Shown here piece after piece: positions 10,287 through 32,708 of a DNA stretch of 44,402 bases. The DNA comes from a virus. The notes under the pieces are model-generated. The model had not been told where the DNA came from. It saw only the letters and a program-made list of their open reading frames with translations, and did no database searches. The stretch's first letter is position 1; each line of letters starts with the position of its first letter. Position numbers and translations under genes: made by a program. The DNA lies in the IMG/VR virus record IMGVR_UViG_3300031578_000103, positions 1-44,402 of that record, one strand, 5' to 3'.

Positions 10287-11474
10287 ATGGCATCCCTGAA
10301 ACCTGTTTTAAAGAACGACTTTATTAAAGCTGATGGTAAAGTTAATATTAAAATTAGGATATCCCATGATGGGAAAACAAGATATATTAAAACACCCTGG
10401 GATATCAAACCCCGTTTTATGAACCAGGATGGGACAATCAATAATAAGTATCCCGGCCAATCAAAACTTAACATGGCACTGTATCTTTTATTAACAGAAT
10501 ACAACGGGATCCTCGAGGGAATCGGTAAGGATATTATTTATATGGATATTAACACTATTGTAAATAAACTCAGGAGACACCAGGAGAGTGGGGAGGGCTT
10601 TATAAGGTATATTAAGGAAAGGATCAGGACCCTGAAGTCAGAGAAACGGTTCAGTTATGCGGAGACATACGAGGCGACAATCAAACACCTTGAAGCCTGT
10701 ACCGGGAAGAAAGAGATCCTTTTCAAAGAGATAAACCTTGAATTTCTGAATCGATTTGAGCGGTACCTCTTAGGCAAGGACAAGAAGATAAACACGGTCA
10801 GGATATACCTCAATAATATCCGTGCAGTTTTCAACCATGCCATTGACAATGATATTATCAAACAGGAACTATTTCCGTTCCGGAAGTTCCGGGTAAAAGA
10901 AGAAAGGACAGCAAAACGCAACCTGGATGCAGGGGAAATAAGAAAGTTATTATCTCAGGAACTATCACCGGCACGTCAGAGAGCACTGGACTTGTTCATG
11001 CTTTCCTTTTATCTGCTGGGCATGAATTTTAAAGATATGCTGTTTTTGACCCCTAAGAGCGTTTCTAAGGGACGTATTATTTATAGAAGGTATAAGACAG
11101 GAGGGGAGTTTTCCGTTAAGATACAGCCCGAAGCAAAGGCTCTACTGGACAAATACAAAGGAGAGCGGTACCTGTTGAGATTTATGGAAGGTAAAAATTT
11201 GAAGCGCAAAACAGAACCTTATAAGGATATTGTCAGAGACACTAATTTCCTTTTGAAGAAGATTGCTAAACAGGCCGGCATGGATATACCACTCAGCACT
11301 TATTTTGCAAGACACAGCTGGGCCACTATTGCCAGCTCAATAGGAATAAGCAGAGATATTATTCGCTATGCTTTAGGGCATGATATCAAAACAACCACTG
11401 ATATCTATCTGGAATATGATTACTCGCAGGTTGACCAGGCAAATGAGAGGGTAATAAATAAACTTAAAAGTTGA
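10287..11474 (+). CDS. int: Tyrosine recombinase, phage integrase (395 aa)
   Basis: The protein has an N-terminal arm-binding region, a SAM-like core-binding domain (about residues 105-205) and a C-terminal catalytic domain. The catalytic residues visible are Lys270 (YRRYKTG), Arg342 (YFARHSW), His365 (ALGHD) and the nucleophile Tyr374 (TDIYLEY). The first Arg of the usual RISE motif is replaced, as GMNFKDM, and this replacement is normal in Bacteroidota integrases. Length is typical. It would insert the phage into the host chromosome, presumably at a tRNA-Pro gene (see 10136..10177). No excisionase is adjacent; the HTH protein at 22679 is a remote candidate. Confidence 0.93.
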   Translation: MASLKPVLKNDFIKADGKVNIKIRISHDGKTRYIKTPWDIKPRFMNQDGTINNKYPGQSKLNMALYLLLTEYNGILEGIGKDIIYMDINTIVNKLRRHQESGEGFIRYIKERIRTLKSEKRFSYAETYEATIKHLEACTGKKEILFKEINLEFLNRFERYLLGKDKKINTVRIYLNNIRAVFNHAIDNDIIKQELFPFRKFRVKEERTAKRNLDAGEIRKLLSQELSPARQRALDLFMLSFYLLGMNFKDMLFLTPKSVSKGRIIYRRYKTGGEFSVKIQPEAKALLDKYKGERYLLRFMEGKNLKRKTEPYKDIVRDTNFLLKKIAKQAGMDIPLSTYFARHSWATIASSIGISRDIIRYALGHDIKTTTDIYLEYDYSQVDQANERVINKLKS

Positions 11475-20129: not shown

Positions 20130-20807
20130 ATGTTAAATAAATCAAACGGAAATATGTATGAATGGGCTAAAACATGGAATCCACTTGGTGGAGAATGTTC
20201 TCATAAATGTAGTTACTGCTCAACAAATAATTTAAAAAGATTTCCAGTAGTGGCATATAAATATTCAGGAGCATTAAGGTTGTTTAGTGATTTACATAAA
20301 GATTTTCCAGGTAAACCCAAAATAATATTTGTTGTGGGGCAAAACGATCTATTTGCCAATAATGTTGAGACTAAATATGTGCAAAGAATCATTCAAAGAT
20401 GTCATATTTGGAATCAGCATATTTATTTTTTTCAAACTAAAAACCCCGACAGATATCTTTCATTCTTGCCCGATTTTCCAAAAGGTTCTATTCTTTGTAC
20501 TACAATAGAGACTAACCGATATTACCCACAAATGGGATTTGCTCCATTAACATCAGCAAGGGCAGAGGCAATGTATAAAATCACTGACTATGAAAAACAG
20601 GTAACTATTGAACCTATAATGGATTTTGATTTAGTTGAAATGATCAATCTAATTAGAATATGTAACCCGTCAAAAGTTAATATTGGAGGGGATAGTAAAA
20701 ATAATCATTTGCCCGAACCTTCAAAAGACAAAATACTTGCATTGATTGATGAACTCAAAAAATTCACTGTCATAGATCAGAAGCGAAACTTAAAAAGGTT
20801 GATATGA
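20130..20807 (+). CDS. Phage Gp37/Gp68 (DUF5131) family protein with radical-SAM-like Cys motif (225 aa)
   Basis: The motif TWNPLGGECSHKCSYC contains Cys23, Cys27 and Cys30, the CxxxCxxC arrangement that binds a 4Fe-4S cluster in radical SAM enzymes. Downstream segments (VVGQNDLFANNV, QTKNPDRY, CTTIETNRYYP, VTIEPIMDFD, NIGGDSKNNHLPEP) match the DUF5131 group found in many phages. The reaction is not established; a nucleic-acid modification has been proposed from its neighbours in general. Here it lies near a cytosine methyltransferase and a PAPS-reductase-like protein. It overlaps the next gene by 4 bp. Confidence 0.82.
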   Translation: MLNKSNGNMYEWAKTWNPLGGECSHKCSYCSTNNLKRFPVVAYKYSGALRLFSDLHKDFPGKPKIIFVVGQNDLFANNVETKYVQRIIQRCHIWNQHIYFFQTKNPDRYLSFLPDFPKGSILCTTIETNRYYPQMGFAPLTSARAEAMYKITDYEKQVTIEPIMDFDLVEMINLIRICNPSKVNIGGDSKNNHLPEPSKDKILALIDELKKFTVIDQKRNLKRLI

Positions 20808-21022
20808 ATCTAATTACAATCAGACAAATACGATTCAAAGTAAATTATGAGTCATTAAAGGACTTTATTTCAAAAGCTCCTGTCAATATGGAATGTTATA
20901 ATGCTATATGGGAAGAGTTCAATAATCTGTATTGTAATGACGATGCGGAACAAATACTTATTAAAAAACTTTGGGATGATTTCATGTTCAGGTTCCGGGA
21001 TGTTTTAACTATAACTATTTGA
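20804..21022 (+). CDS. Hypothetical protein (72 aa)
   Basis: The ATG overlaps the DUF5131 stop by 4 bp and the frame ends one base before the PAPS-reductase-like gene. The product is acidic with a basic start (ITIRQIRFKVNYESLKDFIS) and an aromatic, helical rest (AEQILIKKLWDDFMFRF). It has no recognised motif. Its close packing between two putative Fe-S enzymes suggests that it may act with them. Confidence 0.5.
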   Translation: MNLITIRQIRFKVNYESLKDFISKAPVNMECYNAIWEEFNNLYCNDDAEQILIKKLWDDFMFRFRDVLTITI

Positions 21023-21023
21023 G

Positions 21024-21860
21024 ATGGCCGAGTTGAATAAAATAGAAAGAGCGATAGAAGTAATTAGAAAAGCAGAATCATTGGCTTTAAAGTATCAGTC
21101 TTATGGCTTTCATCTCGCTTTTTCTGGAGGTAAAGACAGTCAGGTTATTTATGAATTGGCTAAAATGGCAGGGGTCAAGTTTCGTCCAGTTATGCAAGTC
21201 ACGACACTTGATCCGCCGGAACTAATGAAATTTGTTCGTAATAATTACCCTGATGTAATATTAGAAAGGCCAAAGATTAATTTTTACAATCTAATAGTAA
21301 AAAAGAAGTCATTACCAACTAAAATGATACGGTACTGTTGTCAATATCTAAAAGAGCAATCAGGTGCAAATACAGTAACTATTTTAGGAATAAGAAAATC
21401 AGAAAGTAATAAACGGGCAAAACGTAATGAATTAGAAATATCAGGGAGAAAATATTCCAATACACTTGACCAGTTTAATATCGACAATAAAGATCAGATA
21501 TTATGTATAAATGGGAAAGATAAGATTTTACTTTCCCCCATAATTAACTGGACAAATTCTGATGTTTGGAGTTTTATAAGAAATAATAATATTGAGTATT
21601 GTGAACTATACGACAAAGGTTATCATAGAATTGGATGTATGTTCTGTCCGATGGCCTGTGTTAGAGTAAAACAACTTGATAGAAAAAACTATCCGGGAGT
21701 TGAAAAATTAATAAAGAAATCTATCCAAAAACTTTGTAAAGATAATAACTATGGGTCAATGTTAAATAATGATGTTGACGAAATATTCAACTGGTGGGTA
21801 ACAAATGATAGCATGAAAGTTTATAAAGCAAAGAAGAAACAATACAAATTAGCATTATGA
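21024..21860 (+). CDS. PAPS reductase-family (CysH/DndC-like) protein (278 aa)
   Basis: The PP-loop SGGKDS is at residues 34-39 and binds ATP or a nucleotide sulfate. Cys105-Cys106 (MIRYCCQYLK) and Cys205, Cys208 and Cys212 (GCMFCPMAC) would hold a 4Fe-4S cluster, as in PAPS reductases and in DndC of DNA phosphorothioation. Phage members of this family are frequent, but their substrates are mostly unknown. Its neighbours favour a role in nucleic-acid modification such as thiolation over host sulfur assimilation. No dndD/dndE-like genes are visible, so it is not a full Dnd system. Confidence 0.82.
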   Translation: MAELNKIERAIEVIRKAESLALKYQSYGFHLAFSGGKDSQVIYELAKMAGVKFRPVMQVTTLDPPELMKFVRNNYPDVILERPKINFYNLIVKKKSLPTKMIRYCCQYLKEQSGANTVTILGIRKSESNKRAKRNELEISGRKYSNTLDQFNIDNKDQILCINGKDKILLSPIINWTNSDVWSFIRNNNIEYCELYDKGYHRIGCMFCPMACVRVKQLDRKNYPGVEKLIKKSIQKLCKDNNYGSMLNNDVDEIFNWWVTNDSMKVYKAKKKQYKLAL

Positions 21861-22954: not shown

Positions 22955-23769
22955 TGAGTCTAAGATATACTAATACTGAAAAATGGAATGATTCATGGTT
23001 TGCTTCATTAAAACCATTGGAAAAACTTCTATTTATTTTTCTGTGTGATAATTGCAATATTGCCGGATTCATTGAAATTAACATAAAGATATGGGCAATC
23101 AATTTGGGGTGTTATCCTAAAAATATTGAAGGGGGATTGAAGGGGGTTCAAAGGGGGATAATCAGGAGTGTTGACGGTGATTGTCTTTACATCCGAAATT
23201 TTCTTAAGCACCAAAAAAATTATCCCTTCAATGAAAAAAATAAGGCTCATATAGCAATTATTAAATTATTTAACGAATACTCATATAAGTTTAATATAGA
23301 AGATATTACAAAATTTATTGAAGGGGGATCGAAGGGGGTTACTACCCCCACAGGTAATGGTAATGGTAATGGTAATGGTAATGGTAAGAAAGAGGGGTCT
23401 GGGGGGAAAAATGAAATCAATATTTCTTTTAAAACTTTCTGGAATTTATATGATAAGAAAGTTGACATGGGAAAATGCGGGCCAAAATGGAATCGATTAA
23501 CTGATATTGAAAGATTGAATTGTATTGACAAATTACCTGATTATATAAAGGCAACTCCAGATAAAAAATTCAGACGTGATCCGGAAACTTATTTGAATAA
23601 CAAAAGCTGGGAGAATGAGATAATAAAACCGAATGCTAAAAGCGAAACATTGACTTATGATGAGATATTAAAGATTTCTGAGACGAATCCTGACATTTGG
23701 AAGTCATATGAAGCTGTTAAGCGTGAAGGTGAACGAAAAGCAGTTTTTGAACTAATTAAATCAGAATAA
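22954..23769 (+). CDS. DnaD-like replisome organizer / replication initiator (271 aa)
   Basis: The N-terminal ~115 residues (RYTNTEKWNDSWFASLKPLE, then FLCDNCNIAGFIEIN and YLYIRNFLKHQKNYPFN-like segments) are typical of phage replisome organizers with a winged-helix DNA-binding domain. A Gly-rich linker with GNGN repeats follows at about residues 125-150. The C-terminal part (FWNLYDKKVDMGKCGPKWNR, then RRDPETYLNNKSWENEII) is the helicase-loader-interaction region common to these proteins. The linker-coding DNA carries a cluster of GGGGG iterons, so the origin is probably inside the gene, as in lambda O. Confidence 0.75.
   Translation: MSLRYTNTEKWNDSWFASLKPLEKLLFIFLCDNCNIAGFIEINIKIWAINLGCYPKNIEGGLKGVQRGIIRSVDGDCLYIRNFLKHQKNYPFNEKNKAHIAIIKLFNEYSYKFNIEDITKFIEGGSKGVTTPTGNGNGNGNGNGKKEGSGGKNEINISFKTFWNLYDKKVDMGKCGPKWNRLTDIERLNCIDKLPDYIKATPDKKFRRDPETYLNNKSWENEIIKPNAKSETLTYDEILKISETNPDIWKSYEAVKREGERKAVFELIKSE
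23128..23349. repeat. Iteron clusters inside the replication gene: candidate origin of replication
   Basis: The octamer GAAGGGGG occurs at 23128-23135, 23139-23146 (and AAAGGGGG at 23150-23157), 23320-23327 and 23331-23338. Within each cluster the copies are spaced by exactly 11 bp, one helical turn. The last copy runs into an inverted CCCCC at 23345-23349, giving the palindrome GGGGGT-TACT-ACCCCC. GGTAAT units follow at about 23354-23387. The repeats also encode similar residues (EGGLKGV, EGGSKGV), so a protein-level cause cannot be excluded. Confidence 0.55.
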
Positions 23770-23808
23770 TATGGAAGCACTAAAAATATGGATTAAATCG
23801 AAAATGAG

Positions 23809-24525
23809 ATGAAAACAGCAATAATAATAATTCCTCAAATAATTGAAAATGGTAATCTAGGTATGTATTTATCGGCTTGTGTTGAAAAGGTACAGCGTGA
23901 TGGTTATACCATTTTACATTCAACCTATTGGAGTGAATATAGTGAGATTAACATCAAAGTATTAATGAATAAGATTATTCATAGTACTGATGCTTTTTAT
24001 CTCTTCGTTGACTTCGGAATTAACAACTTTATGATTGAGATAGTTAATAGATTTCTCATAAAAGAAAATGGGGAATATAGATTTATCAAAGAGATTAAAG
24101 TGGAGATTGTTTTATCTGTTAAACATGGCACTCTTAATGGGTTTCTTTTGGAGATATCAAAGATTACAGGGTTCTCGATTGAGGCATTAAAGGGCAAAAC
24201 CCGTAAGCGTGAGATCGTCGAGGCGCGGCAAATTTATTTCACCCGTGCAAAACTTTTTACAAAAGCCTCCCTTGCAATGATAGGGGGATTGGTTGGGAGA
24301 GATCATGCTACTGTCTTACATGGGATCAAACAAGTTAATGAGGTTGCTGAATTAATAAGGAAGTATGATGATTGGTTTGGTGAAAAGAAACAAAATAAGA
24401 TTGCTGTTCATTTTGAACCAGAGCCGAATAAAACTCCATATAAATCTCCATATAAATCTCCATATGCATCTGTTATGAGTAGCAGCAACAAGGGATATTC
24501 AGGGTTTAGGGAGCATAGTTTATAA
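23809..24525 (+). CDS. Phage protein with DnaA-type domain IV (238 aa)
   Basis: Residues about 125-180 match the C-terminal DNA-binding domain of DnaA: KGKTRKREIVEARQIYF, then SLAMIGGLVGRDHATVLHGI with the signature RDHATV at 164-169. The AAA+ ATPase domain of DnaA is absent. The N-terminal ~110 residues are a separate alpha/beta domain, possibly nucleotide-binding (AIIIIPQIIENG, AFYLFVDFG). The C-terminus has repeated YKSP units. It follows the DnaD-like initiator and probably binds DnaA-box-like sites to help or block initiation. I saw no perfect TTATCCACA box nearby. Confidence 0.75.
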   Translation: MKTAIIIIPQIIENGNLGMYLSACVEKVQRDGYTILHSTYWSEYSEINIKVLMNKIIHSTDAFYLFVDFGINNFMIEIVNRFLIKENGEYRFIKEIKVEIVLSVKHGTLNGFLLEISKITGFSIEALKGKTRKREIVEARQIYFTRAKLFTKASLAMIGGLVGRDHATVLHGIKQVNEVAELIRKYDDWFGEKKQNKIAVHFEPEPNKTPYKSPYKSPYASVMSSSNKGYSGFREHSL

Positions 24526-28906: not shown

Positions 28907-29365
28907 ATGCCAGGAGGAAAGGGAAATATCGAGCCGGAAGATGGCAAACAATTCAGCAGTGAGTACCAGCCAGAAGAGAAATGGACGGAGGAAGAAGCCT
29001 TAAAACTTGGGAAGGATTTAATTGCATGGCAAAGGGAATCTCCAGCTAATATGTTTTGGGATGAGTACCTTATAATGGAGAGGGATTTATACCCTGAAGT
29101 AATAGCATATTTATCTGAAAAATTTACGTCGTTTTTAAAGCTACATGGAAAGGCTAAAAAGATACAGGAAATAAAGCTGAAGAAATATGGCACAGCTGAC
29201 AAGTTAAATGCGGCGATGACAAAGTTTGTTCTTATCAATGATCACGGCTGGAAAGATCAATCACATATAGATCATACTAATGATGGTAATTCTTTTAATT
29301 CTTATAGCGATGCAGAGCTCCTTGCTATTGCAGCCAAACTCGTGGAGTCAAAAGACAAAGGATGA
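28907..29365 (+). CDS. terS: Terminase small subunit (152 aa)
   Basis: The gene lies immediately before the large terminase subunit. The product has a charged N-terminus (MPGGKGNIEPEDGKQF), a helical centre with EEALKLGKDLIAWQRESP and MFWDEYLIMERDLYPEVIAY, and the segment KLNAAMTKFVLINDHGWKDQ, which is typical of this small-terminase group in Bacteroidota phages. It would recognise the packaging site and guide the motor protein. It starts one base after the PLD-like stop. Confidence 0.78.
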   Translation: MPGGKGNIEPEDGKQFSSEYQPEEKWTEEEALKLGKDLIAWQRESPANMFWDEYLIMERDLYPEVIAYLSEKFTSFLKLHGKAKKIQEIKLKKYGTADKLNAAMTKFVLINDHGWKDQSHIDHTNDGNSFNSYSDAELLAIAAKLVESKDKG

Positions 29366-29381
29366 GTTTGGTGATCAGTTA

Positions 29382-30575
29382 ATGTACCGATGGACCATGC
29401 AGGCCCGTCCTGCACAGCTTATCCCTGAAGGTGACTGGACGGTATGGCTTATCAAAGCCGGGAGGGGTTATGGCAAGACCAGGATAGGAGCTGAGACCGT
29501 GCGCATATGGAAAGAGAACAATCCTATCATGCATTTTATAGGTGCTACAGCCGGTGATGCAAGGGATATAATGATTGAAGGTCCTGCAGGGATCCTTAAC
29601 ACTTCCCCTCCCTGGGACAGACCAAAGTATGAACCGTCGAAGAGGAAACTCACTTGGAACAACGGATCTTATGCTCTGGTGTTTACTGCTGATGAGCCGG
29701 ACCGGTTAAGAGGTCCACAATGTCATGCTGCATGGTGTGATGAGATTGCCAGCTGGAAATATCCGGAAGATGCCTGGGATAACATGATGATGGGGCTCAG
29801 ACTTGGAACTAATCCCAGGGTAATAGCCACAACCACACCCCGTCCGACAAAGCATATCAAAGGATTGATGAAAGATCCCAATGTTCATGTAACGCATGGC
29901 ACGACATACGAGAATATCGCTAATCTGGCTCCAGCATTTCTAAATACAATCATAACCAAGTATGAAGGGACACGGTTAGGCCGTCAGGAGCTTAATGCTG
30001 AGATTTTGGAAGATATTGAAGGGGCACTGTGGACACAGGCTCTCATTGATGATTCCAGAGTTAAGGTTTACCCTGATCTGATACGCATAGCAGTGGCTAT
30101 CGATCCGGCAGTGACCAGCAATGTGGATTCCGATGAGACAGGTATCGTTGTCGGGGGGAAGGATGCAGACGGGCATATCTACATACTGGATGATGTCTCA
30201 GGGATTTATTCACCACAGACATGGGCCACGAAAGCATTGCACAGCTATACTACATGGAAGGCTGACAGGATGGTTGCTGAGGTGAACAATGGAGGTGACC
30301 TGGTTGAGACGGTGATACGAAATATTGATAGGAATGTAAGCTATAAGGGTGTCCATGCCAGTCGTGGCAAGGTGACCCGTGCTGAGCCTGTTGTGGCCTT
30401 ATATGAGCAGAAGAGGGTGCATCATGTAGGTGTGCTGTCCAAACTCGAAGATCAGATGACCAGCTGGGCTGGTAACATGGGAGAGAAGTCACCTGATAGG
30501 GTTGATGCCTTGTGCTGGTGCGTGACATTCCTTATGGATGAGAAACGACCAAGTGATGATGACTGTGTGGCATGA
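29382..30575 (+). CDS. terL: Terminase large subunit (397 aa from ATG 29382)
   Basis: The ATPase carries Walker A AGRGYGKT (residues 26-33) and Walker B HAAWCDE with Asp120-Glu121. The nuclease domain shows AIDPAV with Asp241, then SDETGIVVGG, and the last acidic group in SPDRVDALCWC. It cuts concatemers and drives DNA into the prohead. The start is uncertain: ATG 29382 follows the small-subunit gene, whereas an in-frame ATG at 29280 would overlap it by 86 bp and add 34 residues. Homologues usually have a short stretch before WxxxARPxQL, so some of that extension may be real. Confidence 0.93.
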   Translation: MYRWTMQARPAQLIPEGDWTVWLIKAGRGYGKTRIGAETVRIWKENNPIMHFIGATAGDARDIMIEGPAGILNTSPPWDRPKYEPSKRKLTWNNGSYALVFTADEPDRLRGPQCHAAWCDEIASWKYPEDAWDNMMMGLRLGTNPRVIATTTPRPTKHIKGLMKDPNVHVTHGTTYENIANLAPAFLNTIITKYEGTRLGRQELNAEILEDIEGALWTQALIDDSRVKVYPDLIRIAVAIDPAVTSNVDSDETGIVVGGKDADGHIYILDDVSGIYSPQTWATKALHSYTTWKADRMVAEVNNGGDLVETVIRNIDRNVSYKGVHASRGKVTRAEPVVALYEQKRVHHVGVLSKLEDQMTSWAGNMGEKSPDRVDALCWCVTFLMDEKRPSDDDCVA

Positions 30576-30813: not shown

Positions 30814-30863
30814 TGCAGACGAAACTTGAATTTGTGGCATAAAATATAAAGTTCTTTGAAAAT

Positions 30864-30925
30864 ATTGTTACCGTAGATTTATAGAGTAATTTGTTTGGAC
30901 TCGGGTTCGACTCCCGACATCTCCA
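30864..30925 (+). ncRNA. ssrA: Permuted tmRNA, acceptor piece (3' half)
   Basis: The segment carries GTAGA near 30873, the conserved GTTTGGAC at 30893-30900 and a T-arm TCGGG-TTCGACT-CCCGA at 30901-30917. The acceptor strand CATCTCC at 30918-30924 and discriminator A at 30925 follow; a CCA end is not encoded (the genome reads ACAA). This is the 3' end of a tmRNA, the same pattern as in Bacteroides and Porphyromonas one-piece tmRNAs (GTAGA...GTTTGGAC...GGGTTCGACTCCC...CTCCA). Its acceptor strand pairs with GGGGATG at 31031-31037, so it is upstream of its partner: the gene is permuted. The 5' edge of the piece is estimated. Confidence 0.85.
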
Positions 30926-31030
30926 CAATCGCCTTAAGATTCGTTAATCCGTCACGTTAGTACGGTTTCCTGTCATGAATGAAAGTGACGCTGAATAATC
31001 AAGTAGTTGCACTACCGTTGACAGGAATAT
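30926..31030 (+). other. Intervening segment joining the mature 3' and 5' ends of the permuted tmRNA
   Basis: About 105 nt separate the acceptor 3' end from the 5' end of the coding piece. The segment folds on itself: TCCTGTCA 30968-30975 pairs with TGACAGGA 31019-31026, and inside it GTAGT 31003-31007 pairs with ACTAC 31011-31015; GTCAC 30951-30955 can also pair with GTGAC 30985-30989. No gene fits here. In permuted tmRNAs of other lineages such a spacer is cut out by tRNA 3' and 5' processing enzymes. Confidence 0.7.
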
Positions 31031-31178
31031 GGGGATGACATGGTTTAGACAGCAAACGAGGGAAATAGATTGTCTGATGATAACGATAAGCCAAAATAAA
31101 CGGCAAAACAATTCAAATGTTTCAGTATCCTGCTATGCAGTATGCTTAAACCGTTAAGAGGGAACGAAATCCCTCAAC
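31031..31178 (+). ncRNA. ssrA: Permuted tmRNA, coding piece (5' half with tag frame)
   Basis: GGGGATG at 31031-31037 is the 5' acceptor strand; it pairs with CATCTCC of the upstream piece, seven pairs with G3:U70, the alanine identity pair. The D-region ACATGGTTTAGACAGC follows, close to that of Bacteroidota tmRNAs. AAAC 31054-31057 can pair with GTTT 30893-30896 to begin helix P2. The tag frame starts at GGC 31102 with U at -5 and A at -4, as known resume codons, and reads GKTIQMFQYPAMQYA before TAA 31147-31149. A hairpin, GAGGGA 31158-31163 with TCCCTC 31170-31175, closes the piece. The 3' edge is estimated. Confidence 0.83.
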
Positions 31179-31212
31179 GAAAGTTCTTTTAAATAATGAT
31201 AATATTTAAATA

Positions 31213-31383
31213 ATGGCAACGATAAAACCAATGGACAAAAAGAAAATGGATGAGATCAAGACAATCCTGATCCCTTTCGTCCAGTGGATGATAGGAAAGG
31301 ACTGTGACAAGGAAGAGGCTAACAGGATAGTTGACAAGTACTTTAAGCAGACAGAGAACAAACCAGCTAAAAAAGCAGGATAA
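31213..31383 (+). CDS. Hypothetical small helical protein before the portal gene (56 aa)
   Basis: The frame runs from ATG 31213 to TAA 31383; its last base is the first base of the portal ATG. The product is basic and helical (MDEIKTILIPFVQWMIGKDC, then ANRIVDKYFKQTENKPAKKA). Coupling to the portal gene supports it as real and late-expressed. No family recognised. Confidence 0.6.
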   Translation: MATIKPMDKKKMDEIKTILIPFVQWMIGKDCDKEEANRIVDKYFKQTENKPAKKAG

Positions 31384-32708
31384 TGGGATTATTTTCTAAC
31401 ATAATCAACAGGGCAGCGATGAAGCTGAACGTAAGCAAGGCTAATAGACTTGATGAGTACGTGCTTAGGCAGATAGCTAATATCGCCGTTTACCCTGATT
31501 ACAACTCCGGCACATATCTCAAGGGATATACAGGCAATGTTGATGTTTTTACTATTATCAACAAGATCACCGAGCCAGCAAGTATAGTCCCAGTTTATCA
31601 ATACGATAAGAAGGATAATGAGGTCGAGGGCAGGATGATAGCATTGCTTAACAATCCCAACCCCTTTGACAGCTCCCTCTCCAGGGCCGAGCTTATTGAG
31701 GCAGCCCTATCTTTTTACCTGATTTTTGGCGACAGTTATACAGCATACGACACCATCGACAATGGCCCCAATGCCAATGTACCCCTGAGACTGGACGTGC
31801 TGCCCCCGCAATGGATCGAGATAGTCATGGGAACCTATTTCAATCCCATACAGGGATATAAGTTCATGATGAGCGGTAATGTGCTTGATTATGAGAAAGA
31901 GCGGGTCCTGCACTGGAAAGAGTTCAATCCGGATTATGACCAGCAGGGGACAGGCTATCTGAAGGGCATGTCCAGGCTAAAGCCTATCCTGAAGAGTGTT
32001 GTCGGCAGTAGCAGCGCCTATGATGCATTGGTCGCTGCCTTCCAGCATTCGGGGGCCTTCGGGATACTGTCCATATTGGATGAGGAAGGAGCAACGGAAG
32101 GGATAAGCAAGACACAGCTGAGCCGTATCAAGCAGCAATATAAAGATGATTATACCGGGACGAAAAATACAGGCAAAATTGTAGTAACAAACAAAAAACA
32201 TGAGTGGTCTAATTTCGGCATGACGACACGGGAGCTGCAGATCATACAAGCCCTGGGAGCATTTAAGGGAGCGATATGTGATGCATACAACGTGCCGGAT
32301 GTGCTATTATCAGGGAGCAATGACAAGACTTATATGAATTTTCCGGAGGCAGCGAGGGCATTATGGACAAATGCTATCATGCCAAGCCTGGATGCCTACC
32401 TGGGAAAACTCAGTCGTTGGCTGGCTCCAAAGTTCAAAGAGGAAGGGCATGAGTTGCGAGCAGACTATTCCGGAATAGAGGCACTGCAGAAGAACAGGAA
32501 AGAGCAGGTAGAATGGATGGTAAAAGCCGGATTTACTTACAATATGATATGGAAAGAATTAGGTTATGACCCTTCGAATGAACCATACATGGACATCCCA
32601 CTGGTTCCGGCTGGTATGATGCCTATCTCTGAAATAGGGATGATGCCCGGTAATACAGAAGAGGTAATGAAGAGACTGAAGATACCGGATTACAGAAATG
32701 CAAATTGA
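31383..32708 (+). CDS. Portal protein, HK97 type (441 aa)
   Basis: The product has the layout of HK97-like portals: an N-terminal segment, NVDVFTIINKITEPASIVPV, then LLNNPNPFDS, LSFYLIFGDSYTAYD, VLPPQWIEIV, ERVLHWKEFNPDY and the stem segment GMSRLKPILKSVVGSSSAYD. Twelve copies form the ring through which DNA enters and leaves the capsid. Length is normal. It overlaps the following Mu F-like gene by 11 bp. Confidence 0.9.
   Translation: MGLFSNIINRAAMKLNVSKANRLDEYVLRQIANIAVYPDYNSGTYLKGYTGNVDVFTIINKITEPASIVPVYQYDKKDNEVEGRMIALLNNPNPFDSSLSRAELIEAALSFYLIFGDSYTAYDTIDNGPNANVPLRLDVLPPQWIEIVMGTYFNPIQGYKFMMSGNVLDYEKERVLHWKEFNPDYDQQGTGYLKGMSRLKPILKSVVGSSSAYDALVAAFQHSGAFGILSILDEEGATEGISKTQLSRIKQQYKDDYTGTKNTGKIVVTNKKHEWSNFGMTTRELQIIQALGAFKGAICDAYNVPDVLLSGSNDKTYMNFPEAARALWTNAIMPSLDAYLGKLSRWLAPKFKEEGHELRADYSGIEALQKNRKEQVEWMVKAGFTYNMIWKELGYDPSNEPYMDIPLVPAGMMPISEIGMMPGNTEEVMKRLKIPDYRNAN

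Follow-up and report, generated by a model that had tools for sequence, protein, structure and literature searches.

The window (the whole 44,402-nt stretch of viral DNA analyzed here, IMG/VR record IMGVR_UViG_3300031578_000103) carries a tmRNA gene between its genes for the terminase large subunit and the portal protein, with a small ORF on the terminase side. ARAGORN called a permuted tmRNA on the plus strand at 30836–31240, with the tag GKTIQMFQYPAMQYA and a stop codon. The Rfam model of permuted tmRNAs (tmRNA_permuted, RF04321) matched at 30866–31149 with 61.5 bits (E = 1.3e-9), above its gathering score of 47, and the one-piece model (RF00023) stayed below its cut-off, with 29.4 versus 47 bits. 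The one-piece order, with the 5′ half upstream, does not occur here: on the plus strand the 3′ tRNA half (30890–30925) precedes the 5′ tRNA half (31031–31056). The features of the locus are as follows.

10287–11474, + strand: tyrosine integrase of the Bacteroides-phage type (PF13102), far from the tmRNA
29280–30575, + strand: terminase large subunit, upstream neighbor
30836–31240, + strand: permuted tmRNA gene, extent given by ARAGORN (RF04321 match within it)
30851–30859: boxA-like motif GTTCTTTGA, upstream of the T-arm
30863–30870, + strand: P2b, strand of the acceptor piece (TATTGTTA); partner at 31075–31082, from family duplex energies
30890–30895, + strand: P2a, strand of the acceptor piece (TTTGTT); partner at 31051–31056, two-sided changes in five of six pairs
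30901–30917, + strand: T-stem and T-loop, TCGGG TTCGACT CCCGA, from covariation
30918–30925, + strand: 3′ acceptor strand CATCTCC (30918–30924) and discriminator A; CCA not encoded, CAA comes next
30926–31030, + strand: intervening segment, 105 nt; its excision by tRNA-processing enzymes is predicted by reference to known permuted tmRNAs (PMC11915505)
30943–30967, + strand: conserved hairpin GTTAATCCGTCACGTTAGTACGGTT of the intervening segment; stem CCGT/ACGG, loop CACGTTAGT, from conservation and covariation
31031–31037, + strand: 5′ acceptor strand GGGGATG, 7/7 pairs with 30918–30924
31038–31050, + strand: D-region ACATGGTTTAGAC
31048–31053, + strand: GAC-AGC
31051–31056, + strand: P2a, strand of the coding piece (AGCAAA), covarying with 30890–30895
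31075–31082, + strand: P2b, strand of the coding piece (TGATGATA), pairing with 30863–30870
31102–31149, + strand: tag reading frame, from ARAGORN and tag conservation in the family
31158–31175, + strand: post-tag hairpin (GAGGGAACGAAATCCCTC), predicted at -9.9 kcal/mol; probable 3′ end structure of the coding piece
31383–32708, + strand: portal protein, downstream neighbor

The original prediction had placed the T-arm, both acceptor strands and the D-region exactly where we find them, and had read a tag frame downstream, which ARAGORN also called. Its 7-bp acceptor stem is intact in the window, including G3:U70, the alanine identity pair. Hairpins resembling the post-tag hairpin were seen in relatives. 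Part order, score, acceptor, P2 helix and a tag frame with its stop are thus all present. None of the alpha-type features (T-loop GGCGGTA, alpha D-region, AND-initial tag) is found, and two details are atypical for the family described below, namely a D-region with TTTAGAC and a tag ending in QYA. Together with covariation and relatives that have known hosts, the ARAGORN and Rfam results confirm that the locus is a real circularly permuted tmRNA gene of a Bacteroidota phage, as had been proposed.

The integrase lies ∼20 kb from the tmRNA, and most of its relatives come from Bacteroides phages or human-gut phages. Genes for DUF5131 and a PAPS-reductase domain were noted at 20130–21860. No tmRNA was found in the examined DNA of the four IMG/VR contigs whose terminases are nearest to the window's, so the gene is not fixed among the phage's kin and appears to come and go. 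A boxA-like motif (GTTYNTTGA) precedes the T-arm in 32/90 family members, versus 1/90 in a control region, and in 6/30 host genes; a search for a promoter excess in the tmRNA region found none.

A family of permuted tmRNAs in viral sequences

We scanned IMG/VR for a T-arm with CTCCA followed by GGNTTTGACNG at either of two distance ranges, leaving the 5′ acceptor strand unspecified. These relaxed scans returned 36 and 61 stretches at the two ranges, which with earlier matches gave 90 distinct candidates, and a perfect 7-bp acceptor was present in 86 of them. About 100 viral contigs carry the family, which is therefore not unique to the window's phage. A first architecture scan had returned mainly beta-type permuted tmRNAs (ANDxxxALAA tags), which form a separate group and were set aside. 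In several family members ARAGORN called no tmRNA.

Covariation was assessed in an alignment of 87 distinct cores, in which named phages were included and from which we had dropped several rows that were beta-type or nearly duplicated others, as well as one false row. Across the acceptor, T-stem and P2, 93.5% of paired cells could pair (75.7% when shuffled), two-sided changes numbered 276 (68.5 when shuffled, sd 8.3), and the covariation score was 0.483 (0.135 when shuffled); sliding the partner strand by 1–3 columns left at most 66 two-sided changes. Such changes affect the whole T-stem (five pairs), four pairs of the acceptor and five of the six in P2a, and G3:U70 was invariant (87/87). Covariation of the acceptor stem and P2 is thus strong and exceeds both controls. 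Chance is excluded, since 86/90 candidates pair perfectly with a strand that was not part of the search and three helices covary beyond the controls. A further helix, P2b, joins a region 17–45 nt upstream of GGAC to the region preceding the tag; a member's own strands form duplexes averaging -9.8 kcal/mol, versus -7.5 for shuffled partners (sd of means 0.24). RNAalifold on a wider alignment recovered the T-stem and acceptor only, and the register of P2b varies between members.

Variants were also seen. Six members (L236, L237, L242, L245, L246, L259) have alpha-like T-loops (GGCGGAA, GGCAGAA, GGCAGTA or similar) in place of TTCGA. Two human-gut phage contigs, MT836666 and MT837398 (L152 and L154), carry the T-arm GGACACGGGTTCGACTCCCGTTAGGTCCACA, the former with a tRNA-Ile just downstream, and these loci are possibly further permuted tmRNAs.

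The intervening segment contains a conserved hairpin in a subset of members

Across the 90 members the intervening segment is 18–138 nt long (median 63), CCA is encoded in only seven, and no segment motif is common to most. Three members (L027, L037, L098) hold a tRNA gene (Arg or Ala) within it. The spacer had been described as structured, and in the window it does contain a hairpin of its own that is conserved and covaries (30943–30967). Its motif, GYTAAYCNGTCRCKTTAGTACNG, occurs in the intervening segment of the window and of nine other members. Scanning IMG/VR with AACCCGTCRCKTTAGTACGG yielded 17 contigs, six of them known members and 11 new. In nine of the new contigs both tRNA halves are present and the acceptor pairs 7/7; wider inspection showed the same in L235, and in L240 the 5′ half was seen.

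We then freed two stem positions on each side and sorted the resulting 35 distinct sites. Of these, 29 lie within tmRNA genes, 26 by an automated test together with L239, which is cut by its contig end, and L240 and L254, which were assigned by eye from partial evidence. Both freed pairs are kept in all 29 sites within tmRNA genes and in none of the six elsewhere, and in tmRNA genes the inner freed pair takes all four types (C-G, A-U, U-A and G-C). The loop is conserved as CRCKTTAGT in the window and the listed members (L042, L047, L053, L081, L086, L094, L121, L125, L133, L234–L246, L248, L250, L253–L255 and L259). The hairpin is therefore conserved in a subset that includes the window and is almost confined to these tmRNA genes. 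Its pattern had no match in 396 Bacteroidota genomes, and a relaxed Rfam search with a hairpin-bearing gene returned no family. A role as a processing or regulatory signal is our guess; we also considered an H-type pseudoknot (GYTAA/TTAGT), for which pairing is possible and the loop geometry doubtful.

The phage tag differs from the host tag

A filter that favors A or S near the end recovered tags in 80 members, a set that includes two beta-type genes and excludes the window. Tag length is modally 15 aa (exactly so in 47 of the 80), and in these 47 diversity averages 0.43, 0.41 and 0.56 at the first, second and third codon positions, values that are descriptive because the rows are related. 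The family consensus is GKVI[QN][LM]FN.PLRA[VA]A. To compare phage with host we removed the two beta-type tags and added those of the window and of Maribacter phage Panino, again giving 80; R or K stands at position -4 in 64 and AA ends 48, C-terminal figures that the filter biases toward A or S. In 29/30 Bacteroidia host tags, position -4 is A and the final AA is preceded by L or M. The host tag is thus a 9-aa peptide ending in A[LM]AA (GENNYALAA type), versus a phage tag of ∼15 aa with R/K at -4. As predicted from the genes, the phage degradation tag is consistently unlike the tag of the host bacteria. A C-terminal LAA is a recognition signal for ClpX.

A subgroup of four members (L088, L089, L156, L157), crAss-like phages among them, has another type of tag (DNVNNIVDYTNVA, DKSFVTDYTRIAA). 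An SmpB gene was found in one of 42 viral records tested, and host SmpB is therefore presumed for the remainder. In that record (G481, member L082) the SmpB gene (23427–23849; 161.5 bits) accompanies a permuted tmRNA whose tag, GNKTSYAMAA, is host-like.

Hosts retain the one-piece gene

Three Bacteroidota genomes that hold a permuted member retain a one-piece ssrA. In Carboxylicivirga sediminis, a prophage member lies amid phage-like genes on a 154.8-kb scaffold, and the genome also has a one-piece tmRNA (141.6 bits, tag GENNYALAA); a Bacteroidales MAG has a permuted member on one contig and a one-piece tmRNA as well, and a further Bacteroidota genome (G236) has both forms. More broadly, a one-piece tmRNA exceeded the cut-off in 55/60 Bacteroidia genomes. 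Among 396 Bacteroidota genomes, only G236 passed the RF04321 cut-off; the Carboxylicivirga permuted copy falls below it, so RF04321 misses some members. Our genome-wide pattern scan would recover only 22/90 phage members, and absence of the permuted form from host ssrA is accordingly likely and not proven. Five candidates from the pattern scan of genome contigs (L048–L050, L052, L054) were rejected because the pattern had hit either a tRNA gene or a one-piece tmRNA, the apparent second half being fortuitous. In locus L056, an integrase-like gene immediately follows the one-piece ssrA of Carboxylicivirga on its 3′ side, which suggests an element integrated there.

Named phages also belong to the family: Panino, an isolate, and the crAss-like phages cr7_1 and cr124_1, all annotated plainly as SsrA. 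The accessible part of the Panino paper does not mention permutation.

Origin and proposed function

The family's D-region TTTGACAGC and T-flank TTTGGAC are those of the one-piece form of class Bacteroidia, where TTTGAC occurs in 24/30 genes and TTT before GGAC in 24/30. Among the 30 best-scoring genes of a wider phylum sample the counts fall to 1/30 and 0/30, and these genes have TTCGAC with TTC or TCC. GACAGC is common to the family and to beta-type phage genes, which have TTCGACAGC with GTT or GCT. Alphaproteobacterial permuted genes differ from the family in both D-region and T-flank. An independent permutation in Bacteroidota phages, a fourth bacterial lineage, is the best reading of these signatures and in our judgment probably correct. 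The alternative is that Bacteroidota phages acquired a proteobacterial (alpha- or beta-type) permuted tmRNA that then adapted to its hosts, so that the permutation was not independent. In its favor, the permuted genes of phages include beta-type ones that have GACAGC as well, alpha-like T-loops (GGCAGTA/GGCGGAA) are seen in a few members of the family, and one alphaproteobacterial permuted gene, L222, has TTTGAC (TTTGACAG). We nevertheless consider transfer unlikely: most members resemble Bacteroidia one-piece genes in TTTGACAGC, TTTGGAC, a TTCGA T-loop and a G-initial tag, and one member (L024) has exactly the same 5′ half as a one-piece gene from Bacteroidales (GGGGCTGTTTGGTTTTGACAGC). When the tRNA-like domain was used to build a tree, the phage sequences fell mostly among the Bacteroidia one-piece sequences, with no support for this placement. 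The original claim of independence therefore holds as to the signatures, which are of Bacteroidia and not alpha or beta type, but is not proven, because a domain of 56 columns is too short for the permutation to be located on a tree.

Three other readings concern what the gene does. That the halves are remnants of att sites or of a rearranged host ssrA, a pseudogene, is extremely improbable: ssrA is a common integration site, and an integrase-like gene sits just downstream of the Carboxylicivirga one-piece copy, but the window's integrase is 20 kb off, an isolated virulent phage and crAss-like phages carry members in varied surroundings, and both the covariation of acceptor, T-stem and P2 in 87 distinct cores and the codon-level conservation of the tag frame contradict it. 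The RNA might instead inhibit or decoy host trans-translation, much as expression of a DS6A phage gene consisting of little beyond a tRNA-like domain inhibits tmRNA (PMC11915505, PMC4131195); we find this quite unlikely, as a decoy would not need the frame, length and stop codon that are conserved here. Retention of the intervening segment in a one-piece permuted RNA would fit the conserved covarying hairpin of a subset and the shortest segments of only 18 nt. Yet known permuted tmRNAs are cleaved (PMC11915505), and the segment ranges over 18–138 nt, has no motif common to most members and holds tRNA genes in three, which makes retention very unlikely.

We thus favor, with good confidence, a functional-looking permuted tmRNA of a temperate Bacteroidota phage, whose lineage most likely arose from a Bacteroidia one-piece ssrA by a permutation of its own. 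By analogy with known permuted tmRNAs, a single transcript would comprise an acceptor piece (P2 3′ strands, T-arm and 3′ acceptor), the intervening segment and a coding piece (5′ acceptor, D-region, P2 5′ strands, tag and 3′ hairpin), from which tRNase Z and RNase P would excise the segment. Because most members do not encode CCA, a host enzyme would add it, and the resulting two RNAs would be held together by the acceptor stem, P2a and P2b. With host SmpB and, given the invariant G3:U70, charging with alanine by host alanyl-tRNA synthetase, the transcribed and matured RNA could be accepted by stalled ribosomes and mark proteins with the phage tag instead of the host's GENNYALAA type. The benefit would be ribosome rescue during infection and, as the original prediction had it, retuned tagging, with a changed fate of tagged proteins. 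A more speculative scenario, which we regard as possible but doubtful, is that a phage tmRNA lineage, permuted once, replaced the host degron with its own tag (basic at -4, often ending in AVA), that rescued proteins go to another protease or escape, and that the excised hairpin has a processing or regulatory role.

Comparison with known tmRNAs

Permuted tmRNAs have been described in three bacterial lineages (alpha, beta and cyanobacterial), from which alone RF04321 was built (PMC11915505), and are known from mitochondria; a fourth lineage, common in viruses, would add to these. If real, it would provide, in hosts that keep the one-piece form, a clean case for how and why permutation arises and for asking whether phages turn trans-translation to their own ends. 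The difference between host and phage tags is concrete and testable, the hairpin is a conserved RNA element with no Rfam match, and a dedicated covariance model would annotate genes that standard tools partly miss. In the open-access literature we found no paper describing the family, its tag or its hairpin. The accessible part of a 2022 ARAGORN survey reports 53 phage two-piece tmRNAs, 50 of them from marine or aquatic samples (PMC9004378), and may include Bacteroidota phages; one tmRNA, its form not stated, is described for the Cellulophaga phage group Calle (PMC8776804). The family is thus a new, widespread and largely undescribed variant of permuted tmRNA, some members of which, including those of Panino, cr7_1 and cr124_1, were already deposited in GenBank as plain SsrA.

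With the alpha, beta and cyanobacterial systems of RF04321 the window shares the order of parts, the G3:U70 acceptor and a score over gathering; the family differs from them in its D-region, flanks and tag, in its Bacteroidia-type signatures, in a CCA that is mostly unencoded and, in a subset, in the hairpin of the intervening segment. Marine phages such as Melnitz and the pelagimyophages likewise encode a permuted tmRNA, but the Melnitz gene belongs to the alphaproteobacterial type and comes with a glutamine riboswitch, whereas the window's family is Bacteroidia-like (PMC9004378). The Bacteroidia one-piece tmRNA (RF00023) is similar in D-region, T-flank, acceptor and G-initial tag, and the family departs from it in its permuted order and in its tag, which is ∼15 aa long and has R/K at -4, where the one-piece tag has 9 aa and ends in A[LM]AA.
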